DNA of 64,000 nucleotides from Streptomyces pseudovenezuelae (GTDB taxonomy: Bacteria; Actinomycetota; Actinomycetes; Streptomycetales; Streptomycetaceae): NCBI RefSeq assembly GCF_029892565.1, contig NZ_JARXVH010000001.1:992001-1056000 (forward strand). The letters are read 5' to 3'. The notes beneath the pieces were generated by a model. The model had not been told where the DNA came from and searched no databases. It saw only the letters and a program-made list of their open reading frames with translations. Shown piece by piece: positions 32,298 through 54,962 of the stretch (positions are counted from its first letter, which is position 1; every line of letters begins with the position of its first letter). The translations under genes were made by a program, and so were the position numbers.

Positions 32298-34652
32298 ATG
32301 ACACCTGAGCGACCCGACCCCGTGGTGCCCACGGCCACCTACCGACTACAGCTGCAGCCCGAGTTCCCGTTCGCGGCCGCCGCGGCGGCCGTGCCGTACC
32401 TGGCCTCGCTCGGCGTCTCGCACCTGCATCTGTCGCCCGTGCTTGAGTCCGTGCCGGGCTCGGCGCACGGCTACGACGTCGTGGACCACGCGCGCGTACG
32501 CGAGGAACTGGGCGGCGAGGAGGGGTTGCGCGCGCTGGCCCGCACCGCGCGGGAGCACGGTGTCGGCCTGGTGGTGGACATCGTGCCCAACCACATGGCG
32601 GCCGTCCCCCGCCACAACCACGCCCTGTGGGAGGTGCTGCGGGAGGGGCCCAAGTCGCCGTACGCGCGCTGGTTCGACATCGACTGGGAGGCGCAGGGCG
32701 GCCAGATGCTGCTGCCGGTGCTCGGGCAGCCGCTCGGGGCGGTCCTCGGGGACCTGCGGGTCGACGGGGACGTACTGCGCTACTACGACCAGGCGTTCCC
32801 GCTCCGCGAGGGGACCGAGGAGCTGCCGCTGCCGCAGCTGCTGGACGCGCAGTGGTACCGGCCGGTGTGGTGGCGGCTGGCCCGTACCGAGCTCAACTAC
32901 CGGCGTTTCTTCAGCATCTCGGAGCTCATCGGGGTGCGGGTCGAGGACCCGGAGGTGTTCGAGGCCACGCACGCCAAGACCCTCCAGCTGCTGCGCGAGG
33001 GCGTGATCGACGGGCTGCGCGTCGACCATCCCGACGGGCTCGCCGACCCGGACGCGTATCTGAGCCGGCTGCACGAGGCGACGGACGGGCGCTGGACGGT
33101 GGTGGAGAAGATCCTGGCGGACGGGGAAACCCTGCCGGCCTCCTGGCCGGTCGCGGGCACCACCGGCTACGACGCCCTGCGGCACGTCGACGGCATCTTC
33201 ACGGACCCGGCCGGGTTCGGTGAACTCCTCGGCCAGTACCGCCGGTTCGCGGCCCCGCAGGCGGACCGGGGCGGCGACTGGGCGGCGACGGTGCGGCGGG
33301 CCGGGTACCGGGTGCTCACGCACGAGCTGGCCGCCGAGGTCGACCGGCTGACCCGGGTGACCGCCCGGCTGTGCGCGACCTCGCCGGATCCCGCGCTGCG
33401 CGACCGGGCCCCCTGGGCGCTGCGCACGGCGTTGCAGGAGCTGCTGGTCCGCATGGAGGTCTACCGGCCCTACACCTCCGGTGACGCGGCGGCCGTCGTC
33501 ACCGAGGAGGCCGCCGCCGAGGCCAAGCTCGCCTTCGTCGTGCCGGAGGAGGCGGGCGCGGTCGACGTGGTGCGCGACCTGGTGCTGGGACGGGCCGGGG
33601 AGGAGCCCGCGCTCACCGAGTTCCAGGTCCGGTTCGCGCAGACCTCGTCCGCGCTGCGCGCCAAGTCCGTTGAGGACACGGCGTTCTACCGCTACGTGCC
33701 GCTGCTGTCGGCGACCGAGGTGGGCGGCGACCCGGGCAGTCCCGCGGTGTCCGTGGCGGACTTCCACGCGTACTGCGCGCGTGTGCAGCGCGACTGGCCG
33801 CTGACCGGGACCGCCCTGTCGACGCACGACGCCAAGCGCAGCGCCGATGTGCGGGCCGCGCTGGCCGTGCTCACCGAGAGCCCGCAGCGCTGGGCGGACC
33901 TGCTGGCCGAGGTGACGCTCGCGGGCGAGGGCGTGCCGGATCCGCAGCTCGCGTGGGTGGCCTGGCAGACGGTGTTCGGGCTCGGCGAGACGGACGTGGA
34001 ACGCGTCGGGCAGGCCCTGCTCAAGCACGTGCGCGAGGCGGGGCTGTACACGAGCTGGACCGAGCAGGAGCCCGCGTACGAGGACGCGGTGGCGGCGTTC
34101 GTCGCGGCGGGGCCGTGCGGGCAGCCCGGCGAGCAGGTCACCGCCCTGCGCCACGAGCTGGCGCCGCACATCCGGGCGAACGTGCTGGGCACGGCCCTGG
34201 TCCACCTGACGATGCCGGGGGTGCCGGACCTCTACCAGGGGACGGAGAGCGAGTACCGGGCCCTGGTGGACCCGGACAACCGGCGCCCGGTGCCGTTCCC
34301 GGCGGCCGATCCCGGAGAGAAGGACGCGGTGACCGAGGCGGCGCTGCGACTGCGCGCCCGCAGGCCGGGCGTCTTCGGCGACACGGCGACCTGCACGGCG
34401 CTGGAGGCCGAGGGCCCGGCTGCGGCCCACTGCGTGGCGTTCACGCGCTCCGGAGAGACCGTCACGGCCGTGACCCGCCTGTCGCTGCGCCTCGCGGAGG
34501 CGGGCGGCTGGCGCGACACCCACCTCACGCTGCCGCCGGGCCGCTGGGCCGACGTACTGGCTCCGGAACGGGAGTTCACCGGGCACGCACGCGTGGAGGA
34601 GCTTTTCGAGCGCCTGCCGGTGGTGTTGCTGGAGCGGGTCGAGGACGCCTGA
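32298..34652 (+). CDS. treY: Malto-oligosyltrehalose synthase
   Basis: A 784-aa GH13 enzyme that converts the reducing-end alpha-1,4 bond of a maltodextrin into the alpha,alpha-1,1 bond of trehalose. It begins with TYRLQLQPEFPF, the family hallmark, and has DIVPNHMA, LRVDHPDGL, a catalytic Glu in VVEKIL and LSTHDAKRSADVRA near the C-terminal third. Length is normal. It sits behind glgX; its partner treZ is 4.4 kb downstream in the same direction. Confidence 0.95.
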   Translation: MTPERPDPVVPTATYRLQLQPEFPFAAAAAAVPYLASLGVSHLHLSPVLESVPGSAHGYDVVDHARVREELGGEEGLRALARTAREHGVGLVVDIVPNHMAAVPRHNHALWEVLREGPKSPYARWFDIDWEAQGGQMLLPVLGQPLGAVLGDLRVDGDVLRYYDQAFPLREGTEELPLPQLLDAQWYRPVWWRLARTELNYRRFFSISELIGVRVEDPEVFEATHAKTLQLLREGVIDGLRVDHPDGLADPDAYLSRLHEATDGRWTVVEKILADGETLPASWPVAGTTGYDALRHVDGIFTDPAGFGELLGQYRRFAAPQADRGGDWAATVRRAGYRVLTHELAAEVDRLTRVTARLCATSPDPALRDRAPWALRTALQELLVRMEVYRPYTSGDAAAVVTEEAAAEAKLAFVVPEEAGAVDVVRDLVLGRAGEEPALTEFQVRFAQTSSALRAKSVEDTAFYRYVPLLSATEVGGDPGSPAVSVADFHAYCARVQRDWPLTGTALSTHDAKRSADVRAALAVLTESPQRWADLLAEVTLAGEGVPDPQLAWVAWQTVFGLGETDVERVGQALLKHVREAGLYTSWTEQEPAYEDAVAAFVAAGPCGQPGEQVTALRHELAPHIRANVLGTALVHLTMPGVPDLYQGTESEYRALVDPDNRRPVPFPAADPGEKDAVTEAALRLRARRPGVFGDTATCTALEAEGPAAAHCVAFTRSGETVTAVTRLSLRLAEAGGWRDTHLTLPPGRWADVLAPEREFTGHARVEELFERLPVVLLERVEDA

Positions 34653-35101
34653 GGGGCCCCGGGGGTCCGGCGCCCGGCGTGCGGAACCTCCTGGCGCGCC
34701 GGTACATCGGGCCGGCCACCGGCTCATGTCGGCGCACGCTCCCGGGGCCGGAGCCGGACGGCCGGCGCGCGGTGCCGAGCGCCGACGCCCGGTGCGCGCC
34801 CGGGCTCCCCACGGCCGTACCGGTACCGGGCGGCGGCAGAATCGGGCCGACCCACCCGCCGTTCACGAAGAAGCGGCCGGCGACCGGGCGTTCGGCATGC
34901 ACCCGGTGGGCCCCGACGCCCGCACGCCGGTGCCCACGCCCCCGGGCTCGCGAGCACCACGCCCCCGCTGGCAGCAACGGCCCTTCCCGCTGGCGGTAAA
35001 TGCCTCTGGGCGCCCCCTGGAGCCTCCCCCGTTCCGTCCTTGACAGCCCCCGAGCGGCCGTGGGGTACTGCGAACTGCGAAGCCGGGCGGACGTGACGGG
35101 G
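34653..35101 (+). promoter_or_regulatory. 449-bp intergenic region with a -35-like TTGACA
   Basis: No convincing gene is seen; open frames here are arginine/proline-rich and lack binding sites. A TTGACA at 35040-35045 is followed by weakly AT-rich GGTACTGC about 19-20 bp later, a possible promoter for the carboxypeptidase gene at 35102. The length of the gap marks a break between treY and the next gene. Confidence 0.35.
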
Positions 35102-36352
35102 GTGAGTCTCCTGCCGCAGCTGCGCTACCCCACCGTGGCCCAACTCGTGGCATTCGCACGGGCATTGGCCTTACGTCGGCCGGCCCTCTGCGCGCTGCGA
35201 CAAGTGGGCGTCTCCCGCGCGGGCAGGCCCATCCACCTGCTGTCCGTGGGCCATGCCCGACGCGCCGTGCTCGTCGTCGCCGGGGCCCACGCCAACGAGC
35301 CGACCGGCGGCGCCACGCTCCTCGCGCTCGCCGAACGCGTGCTGGGGGAACGGGAGTTACGCTCCGACACGTCCTGGCACTTCCTGCTCTGCGCCGACCC
35401 CGACGGAGCGAGCCTGCACGTCACGCCCGCACCGCGCAGCCTGTACGAGTACCACCTCGGTTTCTTCCGGCCGGCCGCCGAGGAACAGCCGGAGTGGGCG
35501 CCGTCGGTGCTGCCGCCGGACCGACTGCCGCCGGAGACCCAGGCGTTGACCGGGGTCATCGACGAGCTGCGCCCCTACCTCCAGGTGACCCTGCACGGGA
35601 CCGATCTGGGCGGCAGCTGGGTCCAGTTGACCAAGGACCTGCCGGGGCTCGCCGAGCCGTTCGCCAAGTCCGCGGCGGAGCTGCACATCCCGGTGGAGAC
35701 GGGCGCCTCGGACGCGGCCGGCTGGTCGGCGTCCGGTCCCGGCGTGCATGTGATGCCCTCGCCCGGCGCGGGCGCCGCGTACCCGAGCATGCCGGACGAC
35801 GCACGGCACAGCACCTGGTACCACGCCCACCGCTACGGCGGCCTGACCGCGGTGGTCGAGGTGCCGATGTGGGCGAGCGACCTGGTGGACGACGCGGCGC
35901 AGCATCCCGCGCCCGCCGCGGCGATCCGCCGGCTGGCGCGCCGACTGCTGCGGGACGGCACGGAGGTCGACCGCGTGCTCGCCGAGGCGCTGCCGCGGCT
36001 GGAGGGTGTCGACGGGCCGCTGCTGCGGGCCGCCAGGTGGGCGCTGGAGCTGGTGCCGGGTCTGGCCGCGGACTGGATGCACACGCCGCCCGCCGACAAC
36101 ACGATGGCGTACGTCGGCAGTGTGGACGCCTTCGCCCGGCGGCTGCCGCTGCGGGCCGCCGCCATGCTGCTGCGGGTCCTGCGGGAGACCGACGACCTCG
36201 CGGCACCACGCCTGGACCGTCTCGTGGCGGTTTGGAGCGACGCCTTCGCGGAACGCTTCCGCGCCCGCTGGGTCCCGCTGGAGCACCAGGTCGAGCACCA
36301 GTCCCGCACGGTCGTGGCGGCGGCGCTGTACGCGCGCGAACGGGCGGCGTGA
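35102..36352 (+). CDS. M14 family zinc carboxypeptidase with two TTA codons
   Basis: A 416-aa protein without signal peptide. Zinc ligands of the carboxypeptidase A family are visible: H63 and E66 (AHANEPTGG) and H165 (TLHGTDLGG), with the catalytic Glu likely in AVVEVPMW. Codons 24 (35171-35173) and 86 (35357-35359) are TTA, so translation should need bldA tRNA. A paralogue lies at 36811-38175 on the other strand, with an SSI-type inhibitor between them. The GTG at 35102 starts the protein at LLPQLRYPTV, matching the paralogue's VPLLRYPTV. The substrate is unknown; a peptidoglycan-peptide or peptide amidase role is possible. Confidence 0.85.
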   Translation: MSLLPQLRYPTVAQLVAFARALALRRPALCALRQVGVSRAGRPIHLLSVGHARRAVLVVAGAHANEPTGGATLLALAERVLGERELRSDTSWHFLLCADPDGASLHVTPAPRSLYEYHLGFFRPAAEEQPEWAPSVLPPDRLPPETQALTGVIDELRPYLQVTLHGTDLGGSWVQLTKDLPGLAEPFAKSAAELHIPVETGASDAAGWSASGPGVHVMPSPGAGAAYPSMPDDARHSTWYHAHRYGGLTAVVEVPMWASDLVDDAAQHPAPAAAIRRLARRLLRDGTEVDRVLAEALPRLEGVDGPLLRAARWALELVPGLAADWMHTPPADNTMAYVGSVDAFARRLPLRAAAMLLRVLRETDDLAAPRLDRLVAVWSDAFAERFRARWVPLEHQVEHQSRTVVAAALYARERAA

Positions 36353-36397
36353 GTCACGCACGCGTACAGCTCATCGCCGTACCGTCGCTCCCTGCCG

Positions 36398-36814
36398 TCA
36401 GCTGTCCAGTGCGAACACCGATCCCGTCCGTGCCGCCATCACACACCCGTTGGAGAAGGTCTCGGTGTACTCGACGGGGCGCCCGTGCCACTCCCCGCGC
36501 GCGTGCGTGGTGACCGGCGCGTAGATCATCGAGCAGAAGACGTCCTTGGCCGGGATCGCGGTGATGTCGCCGTCCACCGCCGCGAGTTCCGCGCAGGCCT
36601 CGGCCGCGTGCCGGTGGCCCTGGGGCGGGTCGCACAGCAGCAGCGTGCCGCGGGTGTCGCTGGAGCGGGCGTCGCCCTTGGTGACGGTGAGGTAGAGGTG
36701 GTTGCCGGGGAAGGAGTCCGCGGGCGCCGCCACCGCGGGGGCCGCGCTGGCGAGGAGCAGGAGGGCGGCCGACAACAGCCCGCCCCGGGTCGCGGTCGAA
36801 GCAGATGCAGTCAT
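36398..36814 (-). CDS. SSI-family (Streptomyces subtilisin inhibitor-like) secreted protease inhibitor
   Basis: A 138-aa precursor with a Sec signal peptide cleaved near residue 30. Four cysteines, C61/C74 and C94/C124, fit the two SSI disulfides. The reactive loop is C94-S95-M96-I97-Y98, giving Met at P1 as in classical SSI, and YTETFSNGC matches the SSI strand after the loop. The expected target is an extracellular subtilisin-like protease. Its ATG overlaps the carboxypeptidase stop (ATGA at 36811-36814), so its translation depends on that upstream, TTA-containing gene. Confidence 0.88.
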   Translation of the reverse strand: MTASASTATRGGLLSAALLLLASAAPAVAAPADSFPGNHLYLTVTKGDARSSDTRGTLLLCDPPQGHRHAAEACAELAAVDGDITAIPAKDVFCSMIYAPVTTHARGEWHGRPVEYTETFSNGCVMAARTGSVFALDS

Positions 36815-38175
36815 TCCAGAGGCATCGGCACGGCGGCCTCGGATCCCCACCCCGGCTCACCCGAACGGGAGCGCCCGGGCGCGTACCGCCCGGCGAGTTC
36901 GAACGCGGCGAGCACGACCCGCGCCTGGTACTCGACCTGGCGCGCGACCGGGATCCACCGCGCCCCGCAGCCGTCCCGGTAGTCGGCGCACCACTCGTCG
37001 ATCAGGCGGTCGAGGTCCTGCCGTACACGGGCCAGGTCGCGGCCCGCGCGCGTGACGAGCTGGTGCAGCAGTCCGGCGGTGCGCAGCGCCAGGCGCCGTC
37101 CCGCGATGCGCAGGGCGGCCAGGTGGGCGGTGCTGAGCGGTGGCAGCGGGCGCGCGCCGGCGGCGATGTCGGGGTCCCAGGTGTCGGCGAGGCCGGGGCA
37201 GACCAGTAAATAGTCGTCCACCGGGGCGAGCAGGCGCGCCGCGTCCGGCACGCCCACGAGGTGCGGGCGGATGCGTGCGAGGAGGTCCGCCAGGCGCCGG
37301 GCGTCGTGGCGCAGGGTGTGGCTGACCGTGCGCAGGACGGCGGCCCCGTCGGCGGGCGGCGAACCGTCGGCCACGGAGTCGACGGCCCACATGGGCGCCT
37401 CGACGACCGCCGTCACGGTCCCGTGCCGGTAGGGGTGGAACCAGGTCGACTCGACGGCGGCCTCGGTGATGGCCGCGGCCAGGTCGCCGCGCTGCGGCGG
37501 CGGGATGCGGTAGACGGCGGGCCCCAGGTTCGGCCAGTACAGGGTGTCGTACGGGCCCAGTTCGCGCGGTACGCCGAGGCGCGCGGCGGTGTGCGCGACG
37601 CGGCGGGCGAGGCCGGGCAGGTCGTGGGTGAGCTCGACGAAGCCGCCGCCGACGTCGACGCCGTGCAGGGAGCACTGCAGAAAGGGCCGCAGTTCGTCCT
37701 GGAGGTCGAGGAGGGTGCGGGTCTCCGGCAGTGCGGCGCCCGCCGCGCCGTCGGGCAGCCATTCGGGCTGTTCCATGAAGCCGGGCCGGAAGAAGTTCCG
37801 GAAGTACCGGCCGAGTGTGTACGGGCCAGGCAGCCAGCCCTCGTTGCGGCGCAGTCCGTCGGGGTCGAGGCAGAGCAGCAGGTTCCAGGTGGCGTCGGCG
37901 CCCTCGGTGAGCCGGGGGTCGGCGAGGGCGCGTTCGGCCAGGCGCAGGACGGTGGCGCCGCCGACCGGTTCGTTGGCATGGGGTCCGGCGACGACGAGGG
38001 CCTGTCTGACGCCGTGTCCGACGGAAAGCAGCCACAGGGGGGTGCCCGCGCGTGAGGTGCCTACCCTGCGCAGCCGGGCGTCCTCGGGGCGCCGGGCGAC
38101 GAGATCCGCCGCCCGCGCGCCGAGTTCGTCGACGGTCGGGTAGCGGAGGAGGGGTACCAGGGCACACCTCCACAT
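36811..38175 (-). CDS. M14 family zinc carboxypeptidase (paralogue) with a TTA codon
   Basis: A 454-aa protein from the ATG at 38175, without signal peptide. Zinc ligands H66 and E69 (PHANEPVGG) and H171 (SLHGVDVGG), with EAPMW supplying the catalytic Glu region, mirror the paralogue at 35102. TTA is codon 323 (37207-37209). The ATG has no ribosome binding site, whereas GGAGG at 38167-38171 lies 6 nt before an in-frame CTG at 38160-38158. Starting there gives VPLLRYPT, the same beginning as the paralogue, so a rare CTG start is possible. The SSI gene is coupled to its stop. Confidence 0.83.
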   Translation of the reverse strand: MWRCALVPLLRYPTVDELGARAADLVARRPEDARLRRVGTSRAGTPLWLLSVGHGVRQALVVAGPHANEPVGGATVLRLAERALADPRLTEGADATWNLLLCLDPDGLRRNEGWLPGPYTLGRYFRNFFRPGFMEQPEWLPDGAAGAALPETRTLLDLQDELRPFLQCSLHGVDVGGGFVELTHDLPGLARRVAHTAARLGVPRELGPYDTLYWPNLGPAVYRIPPPQRGDLAAAITEAAVESTWFHPYRHGTVTAVVEAPMWAVDSVADGSPPADGAAVLRTVSHTLRHDARRLADLLARIRPHLVGVPDAARLLAPVDDYLLVCPGLADTWDPDIAAGARPLPPLSTAHLAALRIAGRRLALRTAGLLHQLVTRAGRDLARVRQDLDRLIDEWCADYRDGCGARWIPVARQVEYQARVVLAAFELAGRYAPGRSRSGEPGWGSEAAVPMPLE

Positions 38176-38375
38176 AGTGGTGCCGTCGATTCACCGGATG
38201 TGCATGGTGTACGCACAGTCAGTCACGGCTGGGGAGGTACGTCAACAGCGCTGCCAGGAAAGGGATTCGGGCCACCACAAGAGATCAACAGCCTGTCATG
38301 CTCGGGCCAAGGCTGGCCGAAAGCAAGCAGTCGAAAGTCGGCGGGAGGGGGCACTGAAAGCGTCGCGGAAAGGCT

Positions 38376-38927
38376 TCAGGTGATGGCGAGCCGGAACGTC
38401 ATCCGCCCGAAGCCGATCTGGTCGCCCTCGCGGACGACGGCGGCACCGATGACACGGCGTCCGTTCACGGTCGTGCCGTTGGTCGAGCCGAGGTCCCGCA
38501 GGACCCACATGCCGCCCTGCCGGCTGAGTTCGGCGTGCACCCGGGAGACCGTCTCATGGGTCAGGCGCAGCCCGTTCGCCGGGTCGCGGCCGATGCGCAG
38601 CGGGTAGCCGCTCGCGGGGTGCGGCAGCAGCAGCTTGGGCAGGCGCTCGGCCTGCCAGGCCCTGCGCAGCCGTACGGTGAAGCCGGAGACGGCCTCCACC
38701 GTGCCGAACACCAGGCGCGAGACGCGGCTCTCGGTGGGCAGGTCGGCGGTGAGCGCGGCCAGTTCGTCGGACCGGCGGGCGGCCAGCGCCACCTCCATCC
38801 GGCGGATGAACGTGTCGTGCGACAGCCGTCCCATGGCGACGCCGTCACGCAACACCTTCAGCGCCTTGTCGCGCTCCGCGTCGGACAGCCGCGCGGGGTA
38901 CGTGTTGAACTCGAATGACGACGTCAC
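38376..38927 (-). CDS. DUF1707 and FHA domain protein
   Basis: A 183-aa cytoplasmic protein. Residues of about 12-65 form a DUF1707 domain (ARLSDAERDKALKVLRDG, then RRMEVALAAR); from about 105 an FHA domain follows with RIGRDPANGLRL, VSRVHAEL and DLGSTNGTTVNG, the residues that bind phosphothreonine. It should dock onto a protein phosphorylated by a Ser/Thr kinase. GTG at 38927 places the start right before the DUF1707 domain; the binding site is weak. It is alone between the carboxypeptidase unit and treZ. Confidence 0.88.
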   Translation of the reverse strand: MTSSFEFNTYPARLSDAERDKALKVLRDGVAMGRLSHDTFIRRMEVALAARRSDELAALTADLPTESRVSRLVFGTVEAVSGFTVRLRRAWQAERLPKLLLPHPASGYPLRIGRDPANGLRLTHETVSRVHAELSRQGGMWVLRDLGSTNGTTVNGRRVIGAAVVREGDQIGFGRMTFRLAIT

Positions 38928-39100
38928 GTTCGTGATTGTCGGGCAGCGAACTCCGGGTGTCCAGAAAACGAGAAAACGGTCACCACACGTGCGTACCTGA
39001 CGACACCCGCCACAAAAGGGCGGATCCAAAAGCGGATTGATCTCGTTTGAAGCACCATGGACGGGCTACATCACGGTGAGCAGACGAAGGGGAACCGTCC

Positions 39101-40846
39101 GTGCAGTTCGAGGTGTGGGCACCGCAGGCAGACCGTGTGACGCTCCATTGCGACGGCGCCACGCGCGCGTTGGAGCGCGATCCGCAGCGGGAGGGTTGGT
39201 GGCGGGGCGAGGCGACGGCGCGGGACGGCACGCGCTACGGATACGCGCTGGACGACGGCCCGGTGCTGCCGGACCCGCGCTCGCGCCGGCAGCCGGACGG
39301 CCCCGACGGGCTGAGCGCGGTCTTCGACCAGGGGCGCTACGAGTGGCGCGCCGAGTGGGCCGGACGGCCGCTGCCGGGCGCGGTCCTGTACGAGCTGCAC
39401 GTGGGCACGTACACGCCCGAGGGCACCCTGGACGCGGCTGCCGAGCGGCTTGAGCATCTCGTCGAACTGGGCATCACGCACGTCGAGTTGATGCCGCTGT
39501 GCCCCTTCCCCGGCCGGCACGGCTGGGGCTACGAGGGCGTCTCGCTGTGGGCGGTGCACGAGCCGTACGGCGGGCCGGAGGCGCTGAAACGGTTCGTCGA
39601 CCGGGCGCACGAACTGGGCCTGGGCGTCGTCCTGGACGTCGTACACAACCACCTGGGTCCCTCCGGCAACTATCTGCCCGCGTTCGGGCCGTACTTCACG
39701 GACACGCACCACACGCCGTGGGGTTCGGCCGTGAACCTGGACGCGCCGGGCTCCGACGAGGTGCGGCCCTACCTGCTGGGCAGCGCGCTGTCCTGGCTGC
39801 GCGACTACCGGCTCGACGGGCTGCGCCTGGACGCGGTGCACGCGCTGGCGGACACGCGCGCGCTGCATTTCCTGGAGGAGCTGTCGAGCGCTGTCGACGC
39901 TCTCTCCGCCGACCTGGGCCGGCCGCTGTTCCTGATCGCCGAGACCGACCTCAACGACCCGCGGCTGATCACCCCGCGCGCGGGGGGCGGACTCGGGCTG
40001 CACGCGCAGTGGAACGACGACTTCCACCACTCCCTGCACACCGCGCTGACCGGCGAGTCGCAGGGCTACTACGCCGACTTCGCGCGCGCCCCGCTGGCCG
40101 CGGTCGCCAAGACGCTCACCGGCGGCTACTTCCACGACAACACCTACTCCAGCTTCCGCGGCCGCCACCACGGGCGCCCGCTGGACCGGGTGCGTGTGGC
40201 GGCGCACCGCCTGCTGGGCTACACCCAGACGCACGACCAGGTCGGCAACCGCGCCCAGGGCGACCGCCTCTCCGCCATCCTCTCCCCCGGCCTGCTCGCC
40301 TGCGCGGCCACCCTCATGCTGACGGCGCCCTTCACACCGATGCTGTTCATGGGCGAGGAGTGGGCGGCCGGCACGCCCTGGCAGTTCTTCACCGACCACA
40401 CCGATCCCGAGCTCGCGGATGCCGTACGGCGGGGCAGGCGGCGGGAGTTCGCGCCGCACGGGTGGGCCGAGGAGGACGTGCCCGACCCGCAGGACCCGGC
40501 GACCCGCGACCGCTCCTGCCTCGACTGGAGCGAACTCGACGACGAGCCCCACGCGCGCGTACTGGCCTGGTACCGCCGCCTCCTCGCCCTGCGTCAGGAA
40601 CAGCCCGACCTCACCGACCCCGACCTCGCCGACACCAAGGTCGCGTACGACGAGGGCGAGCGCTGGCTCGCCTTCCGGCGCGGCGACGTCCGCGTCGCCG
40701 TGAACCTGGCGAAGGAGCCGGCGGCGATCCCGCTGGGGCCGCGTCAGGCGCGCGTGCTCGCCGCGTGGGAGCCGGTCGAGGCACCGGGGGCGGACGGGGT
40801 GCTGAACGTGCCCGGGGAGTCGGCTGTGGTGCTGTTGCAGGGGTAG
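39101..40846 (+). CDS. treZ: Malto-oligosyltrehalose trehalohydrolase
   Basis: A 581-aa GH13 enzyme that releases trehalose from the end of the maltooligosyl-trehalose made by TreY. An N-terminal CBM48-like domain (FEVWAPQADRVTLHCDG, in part) precedes the barrel: VVHNHLGPSGNY, nucleophile in LDGLRLDAVHAL, Glu in FLIAETD, and TQTHDQVGNR. GTG at 39101 follows AAGGGGA at 39087-39093. The upstream 173 bp, shared with the divergent FHA gene, has AT-rich direct repeats around AAAACGAGAAAACGG. Confidence 0.95.
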   Translation: MQFEVWAPQADRVTLHCDGATRALERDPQREGWWRGEATARDGTRYGYALDDGPVLPDPRSRRQPDGPDGLSAVFDQGRYEWRAEWAGRPLPGAVLYELHVGTYTPEGTLDAAAERLEHLVELGITHVELMPLCPFPGRHGWGYEGVSLWAVHEPYGGPEALKRFVDRAHELGLGVVLDVVHNHLGPSGNYLPAFGPYFTDTHHTPWGSAVNLDAPGSDEVRPYLLGSALSWLRDYRLDGLRLDAVHALADTRALHFLEELSSAVDALSADLGRPLFLIAETDLNDPRLITPRAGGGLGLHAQWNDDFHHSLHTALTGESQGYYADFARAPLAAVAKTLTGGYFHDNTYSSFRGRHHGRPLDRVRVAAHRLLGYTQTHDQVGNRAQGDRLSAILSPGLLACAATLMLTAPFTPMLFMGEEWAAGTPWQFFTDHTDPELADAVRRGRRREFAPHGWAEEDVPDPQDPATRDRSCLDWSELDDEPHARVLAWYRRLLALRQEQPDLTDPDLADTKVAYDEGERWLAFRRGDVRVAVNLAKEPAAIPLGPRQARVLAAWEPVEAPGADGVLNVPGESAVVLLQG

Positions 40847-54790: not shown

Positions 54791-54962
54791 GGGGCGTCGA
54801 CAACTCACTCCAAGTGGCTGCTCACTTGACTACCGGTGGTCACACACGATTGGCTCCGGCGAGCGAGAGTCACCCGGTCGGCGTACTACGCAGCGAACGC
54901 CGCCCGGAAGGCTCCTTCTCGCCGTTCCTCCAGCTCTGCGCACAGCGAGGTGCCGCACCCTC

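Follow-up and report, generated by a model that had tools for sequence, protein, structure and literature searches.

The question raised by this locus is whether a predicted secreted protease inhibitor is made only when a neighbouring gene carrying the rare leucine codon TTA is translated. The locus occupies positions 35102 to 38175 of a 64,000-nucleotide stretch of the Streptomyces pseudovenezuelae genome (contig NZ_JARXVH010000001.1, positions 992,001 to 1,056,000; hereafter the window, whose numbering is used throughout) and consists of two convergent paralogous M14 peptidase genes, A and B, around a gene of the subtilisin-inhibitor family (SSI), whose start overlaps the stop of B. A preliminary description of the window had held that the inhibitor could be produced only by way of the TTA-containing gene B. 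We found no support for this claim, as a promoter-like element accompanies SSI at every B locus that holds it and persists where B is missing, and as loss of the TTA codon is not tied to loss of SSI. SSI thus has an apparent developmental promoter inside B, and strict TTA gating of the inhibitor is probably wrong. The presence of a promoter for SSI inside B is well supported by sequence comparison; that this two-box element is SSI's own developmental promoter, driven by BldM alone or together with WhiI, while TTA codon 323 gates only the translation of B, is in our assessment the likely, though by no means secure, interpretation.

Gene B (36811-38175, minus strand) and SSI (36398-36814, minus strand) were compared across 155 distinct B loci (i.e., 178 loci minus L180 (69%) and 22 merged duplicates), of which 122 hold SSI and 33 do not. 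Alignment of the 80 bases 5' of SSI revealed two conserved blocks, CCCGTTCGGGTGAG and TGCCGATG. In the window, box 1 of the predicted promoter (CCGTTCGGGTGA, a BldM-type site; 36857-36868, minus strand) is located within the last 20 codons of B, and box 2 (GCCGAT, -10-like; 36824-36829, minus strand) is located 27 nucleotides from it. The pattern CGRGTGA-N27-GCCGAT was present in 122/122 B loci with SSI and in 0/33 without, a perfect separation of the 155 loci which would place SSI under a recognisable developmental element, and it tracked SSI in 7/7 independent pairs on the tree (P = 0.0156; sign test). The strict form of box 1, CCGNNCGRGTGA, occurred in the last 90 nucleotides of B in 98/122 loci with SSI and 1/33 without, and only twice in the 197,832 nucleotides making up the rest of B.

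In loci with SSI, B is constrained at synonymous sites. Glycine codon 439 is GGT in 115/115 loci with SSI as compared to 4/27 without, and arginine codon 437 is CGT in 106/109 as compared to 1/19 (SSI-less loci mostly use GGC and CGC, respectively); these codons represent the two strongest of 325 columns. If the tail of B were kept for its protein sequence alone, with the boxes as a by-product, retention of the tail without SSI would be expected, and a VPM-x-x-E/D tail is indeed retained in many SSI-less B proteins too. As codons 437 and 439 are held at synonymous sites only with SSI, however, and as the boxes are also retained in loci that lack B, we regard this explanation as highly improbable.

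The B-less loci were a non-random set of 25, picked by hand for having no B among the listed matches; SSI is present in 15. Among these 15 SSI loci without intact B, the boxes are 27 nucleotides apart in 9. Fragments of B are retained in L250 and L251. In L252 and L253, which are B-less, the boxes are 26 nucleotides apart and SSI starts 87 and 150 nucleotides below box 2, respectively, with a strong Shine-Dalgarno sequence. The boxes thus keep their mutual distance and differ in how far they lie from the start codon, which is promoter-like and would not be needed for a stop/start coupling device.

These loci also bear on the hypothesis that the conserved stretch is a four-codon mini open reading frame (ATG NNN NNN NNA TGA), terminating in an overlap with the start of SSI, where ribosomes would be reloaded. 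An ATG is located at -11 in 111/116 coupled loci, in 4/5 loci where B stops early and in 9/12 B-less loci with ATGA, and B codon 451 is ATG in 107/112 SSI loci as compared to 17/25 SSI-less loci (P = 3 × 10-4). However, the ATG within box 2 is replaced by ATA in five loci in which GCCGAT is unchanged, and a mini open reading frame would explain neither box 1, which lies 27 nucleotides farther upstream, nor the long distance of the two boxes from the SSI start in L252 and L253; overall, we consider this hypothesis very unlikely. In three loci (L234, L236 and L243) the four-codon stretch before SSI is in frame with SSI (12 rather than 11 nucleotides), and SSI may thus start earlier there.

The reported overlap of the SSI start with the B stop was confirmed. 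In the window the ATG of SSI lies on the TGA of B (ATGA, 4 bases; 36811-36814, minus strand), and the same 4-base overlap was found in 117/122 SSI loci with B, with GAA as the last codon of B (giving ATGA) in 115/122 loci with SSI as compared to 1/33 without. Hybrid energies with the 16S end revealed no Shine-Dalgarno match at SSI starts overlapping B (n = 117): the median was -3.4 kcal/mol, as compared to -6.1 kcal/mol for shuffled SSI leaders and to -8.4, -7.6, -8.7 and -7.8 kcal/mol for B (59 starts), A (103), treZ (148) and treY (77), respectively. The overlap, the GAA codon and the missing Shine-Dalgarno sequence are all consistent with translational coupling to B as the main source of SSI, in which case TTA-323 would gate the inhibitor. 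Conversely, the element beside SSI outlives B and changes its distance from the start codon as a whole, and in the remaining 5/122 loci B stops 42 (mostly) or 54 nucleotides ahead of the SSI start, with TTA retained in 4 of the 5. Moreover, TTA and SSI do not change in step on the tree (41/122 SSI loci are without TTA and 9/33 SSI-less loci have it), and a leaderless start at the same place would yield the same overlap. Coupling as the main route to SSI therefore seems rather unlikely to us, and an ATGA overlap 3' of a TTA gene is no proof of coupled control. Under the favoured promoter reading, with box 2 as the -10 element, transcription would start at or beside the SSI ATG, and the mRNA would have no leader or almost none, which would account for the lack of a Shine-Dalgarno sequence; part of SSI may also be translated from B transcripts that read through, with coupling at ATGA.

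As to the regulator, the available text of Al-Bassam 2014 (PMC4125116) gives TCACcCgnncGgGTGA as the BldM Group I motif and TGnnCCGnnCGGGTGA as the BldM-WhiI Group II motif. All fixed bases of CCGnnCGGGTGA, the core that Group I and Group II sites share in that text, are present in box 1. With Group I, one half-site is perfect and 12/14 fixed bases agree; with Group II, 10/12 agree. The commonest form of box 1, GCTCCCGTTCGGGTGA (62/98), is without the Group II TG. BldM would bind box 1, and its role as regulator of the predicted SSI promoter is moderately supported. A scan of the same genome for CGGGTGA-N25-29-GCCGAT gave 20 matches, with 0 for a reversed-pattern control; 2 of the 20 have exactly 27 nucleotides, one being the SSI site in B, and no regulon emerges. 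A terminator scan of the region found none. A promoter for sigma-WhiG was also considered: as far as PMC8325347 describes it, the flagellar/WhiG -10 element is GCCGATAA, with TAAA at -35. Box 2 is identical to this -10 element over its first six bases (6/8 matched), but the -35 TAAA is missing, and box 2 was therefore not classed as a WhiG promoter. A second match to CCGNNCGGGTGA in the window is located at 54870-54881 (minus strand).

Several observations weigh against the two boxes being a BldM-driven promoter. The relaxed pattern that separates the loci was written after the SSI loci had been seen, and, as the third-ranking column already reaches 5.3 × 10-12, relatedness alone inflates the column test. 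Two B-less SSI loci have a box spacing of 36 nucleotides, B-less L241 has an altered box 2 and B-less L189 has neither box. Scanning the region for plain sigma-70 promoters gave none, and 15 nucleotides upstream of box 2 the consensus reads GGGG, with TAAA absent. The outer half-site of box 1 is GCTC as compared to TCAC in the Group I motif as published in the accessible part of PMC4125116, and the TG of TGnn in the Group II motif given there is absent. CCGNNCGGGTGA has 2 matches in the window as compared to 0.77 expected, a number reached by 19/100 shuffles, and the full BldM palindrome with 2 mismatches allowed has 1 match as compared to 1.08 expected; a BldM motif by itself is thus expected about once per window, and the case for BldM rests on conservation. 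Finally, the promoter status of the element is inferred from sequence.

The product of the SSI gene passes the profile of its family (PF00720, 89.7 bits, cut-off 23.9) and matches PDB structures of SSI proteins (3ssi, E = 2.3 × 10-18). Four cysteines past the signal region (after residue 25) were found in 115/117 SSI proteins, and methionine occupies the P1-equivalent position of the C-x-M reactive-site segment in 109/122 (alignment to 3ssi). The N-terminus is hydrophobic, with a median of 2.2 among SSI proteins for the highest 13-residue hydropathy mean, and the protein is predicted to be secreted. Once exported, it would restrain subtilisin-like proteases during sporulation. The genome holds three SSI genes; the strongest, L001, is 39-42% identical to the SSI linked to B.

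What, then, is the role of the TTA codon in B? Codon 323 is TTA in 90 of the 155 distinct B genes, CTG in 32, CTC in 21 and another codon in 12, while the other leucine codons of B include 1 TTA among 9,527. In an evenly drawn congeneric sample (98 B genes at ≥69% identity among 295 genomes, counted among the matches listed), TTA was found in 56/98. Codons 322 and 323 were excluded from tree building; on the resulting midpoint-rooted tree, parsimony places TTA at the root and counts 11 losses and 4 gains. SSI, treZ, treY and the neighbouring FHA gene have zero TTA codons within their aligned parts. The conservation of TTA at this position far exceeds chance, and we regard it as a real, conserved candidate control codon for B, the product of which would be a cytoplasmic peptidase whose synthesis requires the bldA tRNA. 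The conservation check set out in the preliminary description was passed by B-323 and failed by the two codons of A. Among 105 full-length relatives of A, TTA-24 was found in 0, TTA-86 in 4 and any TTA in 10, and among A genes aligned at B loci 13 of 6,140 leucine codons were TTA, position 86 contributing 7; A is thus not a conserved TTA gene. In an 864-kb part of the same genome, TTA occurs in 27 of 595 genes (crudely called), and the adjacency of two TTA genes is thus uncommon but, by chance, not striking. A tie between loss of TTA and loss of A, hinted at by the first 110 loci, was gone in the wider set and in independent pairs.

The TTA codon is conserved as a unit with the codon before it (TAT-TTA, codons 322-323; 37207-37212, minus strand). 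The rare codon TAT precedes TTA-323 in 84/90 TTA loci, while elsewhere in B it makes up 51/1,404 tyrosine codons, 36 of those 51 at codon 12. Of the 15 branches on which codon 323 changes, 11 also carry a change at codon 322, whereas the 359 other columns reach at most 5 (median, 1), and the linkage was also significant in independent pairs (median P = 0.012; sign test). Short-range recombination does not account for it, as the adjoining codon 324 changes with TTA on only 4/15 branches (codon 321 is too constant for the test), and neither does a general Streptomyces habit, as TAT precedes only 1 of 30 TTA codons in the 864 kb, that one being B itself. T-ending codons of any kind precede TTA in 6 of these 30 cases as compared to a background of 4.6%, the numbers being small. 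TAT is thus locked to TTA more tightly than a tRNA-limited codon alone requires, and is an unusual neighbour for TTA, which would be expected if TAT-TTA acted as a signal in DNA or RNA and not as a bldA codon. On the other hand, TTA-323 is in frame and is the single codon that depends on the bldA tRNA alone for its decoding, no further column changes together with the pair, and an Rfam search of 34700-39100 gave no match; we thus consider a nucleic acid signal unlikely. TTA-323 offers a clean example from nature of selection acting on a single rare codon, late in its gene and with a locked neighbour, and as such bears on bldA control.

Both peptidases retain the residues expected for catalysis. 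B (454 amino acids) matches Peptidase_M14 (PF00246) with 35.5 bits and A (416 amino acids; 35102-36352, plus strand) with 51.6 bits (cut-off 21.6 for both), and the two are 44% identical, in agreement with the paralogous M14 pair initially described, with its TTA codons at positions 24 and 86 of A and 323 of B. The zinc/catalytic set of B (H66, E69, H171 and E259) is intact in 155/155 proteins, and the corresponding residues of A are conserved in 106/106 and 121/121 aligned sequences. A moderate-confidence structure model of B suggests an M14 fold, with Foldseek TM values of only 0.28-0.30 in the top rows; NCBIfam gave no match for B, and A, with 23.4 bits, fell below the cut-off of the MpaA model (157) and was not taken as an MpaA. 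The reported lack of signal peptides was upheld in that neither A nor B showed an N-terminus resembling a signal peptide, as judged by hydropathy and by the start of the M14 match, no dedicated signal-peptide program having been used: within the first 45 residues, the 13-residue hydropathy mean peaks at 1.8 for A and 0.84 for B, as compared to the SSI median of 2.2, and the profile match starts at residue 16 or 24. The start codons of both genes are uncertain. A can also be read from 35000, and the ATG assigned to B (38175, minus strand) is mostly TTG in relatives and has GGAGG just inside the frame.

Upstream of B, alignment of 60 of 153 upstream regions predicts a promoter consisting of TTGACG and the inverted repeat TGTGC-N9-GCACA (38199-38245, minus strand), the repeat being a candidate operator of B. 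For A, 60 of 97 upstream regions gave a promoter-like TTGACA ... TACTGC (35040-35071, plus strand), alongside which a GC-rich inverted repeat is conserved (35003-35071, plus strand). The A-SSI-B locus is bordered by treY (32298-34652, plus strand; TIGR02401, 888 bits) on one side and treZ (39101-40846, plus strand; TIGR02402, 764 bits) on the other, and a gene with FHA and DUF1707 domains (38376-38945, minus strand) is a constant neighbour upstream of B. Among the 155 distinct B loci, the FHA gene was found in at least 151, treZ in at least 149 and treY in at least 126, these counts being lower bounds as some locus stretches are short. The three genes recur together, as had been expected: among 80 named loci (the best 80 of 373 confirmed, and thus biased to near relatives), B, SSI and A were all present in 54, SSI in 61 and A in 67. 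S. coeruleorubidus lacks SSI. In the even congeneric sample B was found in at least 98/295 genomes, with SSI in 78 and A in 75 of those 98. All named relatives recovered, among the matches listed, were Streptomyces. The M14 paralogues at L182-L186, L188 and L248 are more distant (44-62% identical to A or B) and are located outside the tre locus within the available stretches.

Taken together, these data allow a bolder proposal, which we offer tentatively, as one that may well be wrong in part: the end of the bldA-gated gene B would double as a BldM/WhiI promoter for a leaderless SSI mRNA, combining a TAT-TTA lock on the peptidase with a sporulation promoter for the inhibitor written into synonymous sites. 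If true, two developmental switches would be joined in one locus.

No title or abstract opening found in the open-access literature describes a treY/treZ-linked A-SSI-B locus, and comparison was made with systems that share some of its parts. The predicted SSI site has the core CCGnnCGGGTGA and the developmental setting in common with the BldM Group I and BldM-WhiI Group II promoters, to the extent that PMC4125116 presents them. It differs from these in that it lies in the coding end of the upstream gene and in that its outer half-site fits neither group fully; the accessible part of that account names no SSI gene. A known system related to the inhibitor is Sti (SCO0762) of S. coelicolor, an AdpA-dependent SSI which depends on bldA through adpA, according to the portions of PMC4255298 and PMC2000904 available. 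Sti and the B-linked SSI share the family and an association with developmental protease control, but the SSI studied here is a separate paralogue, linked to treY/treZ and B and with a different box. As compared to M14 carboxypeptidases (funnelins) and MpaA, A and B have no N-terminal signal that could be seen and carry a long helical C-terminal part. Conserved TTA genes such as adpA, for which Table 2 of PMC4255298 lists TTA in 14/14 genomes, have, in what that source reports, an in-frame TTA at a fixed place across Streptomyces, as does B. In contrast to adpA, the TTA of B is present in 90/155 genes, with approximately 11 losses and 4 gains, and is located late in the gene, locked to its TAT.

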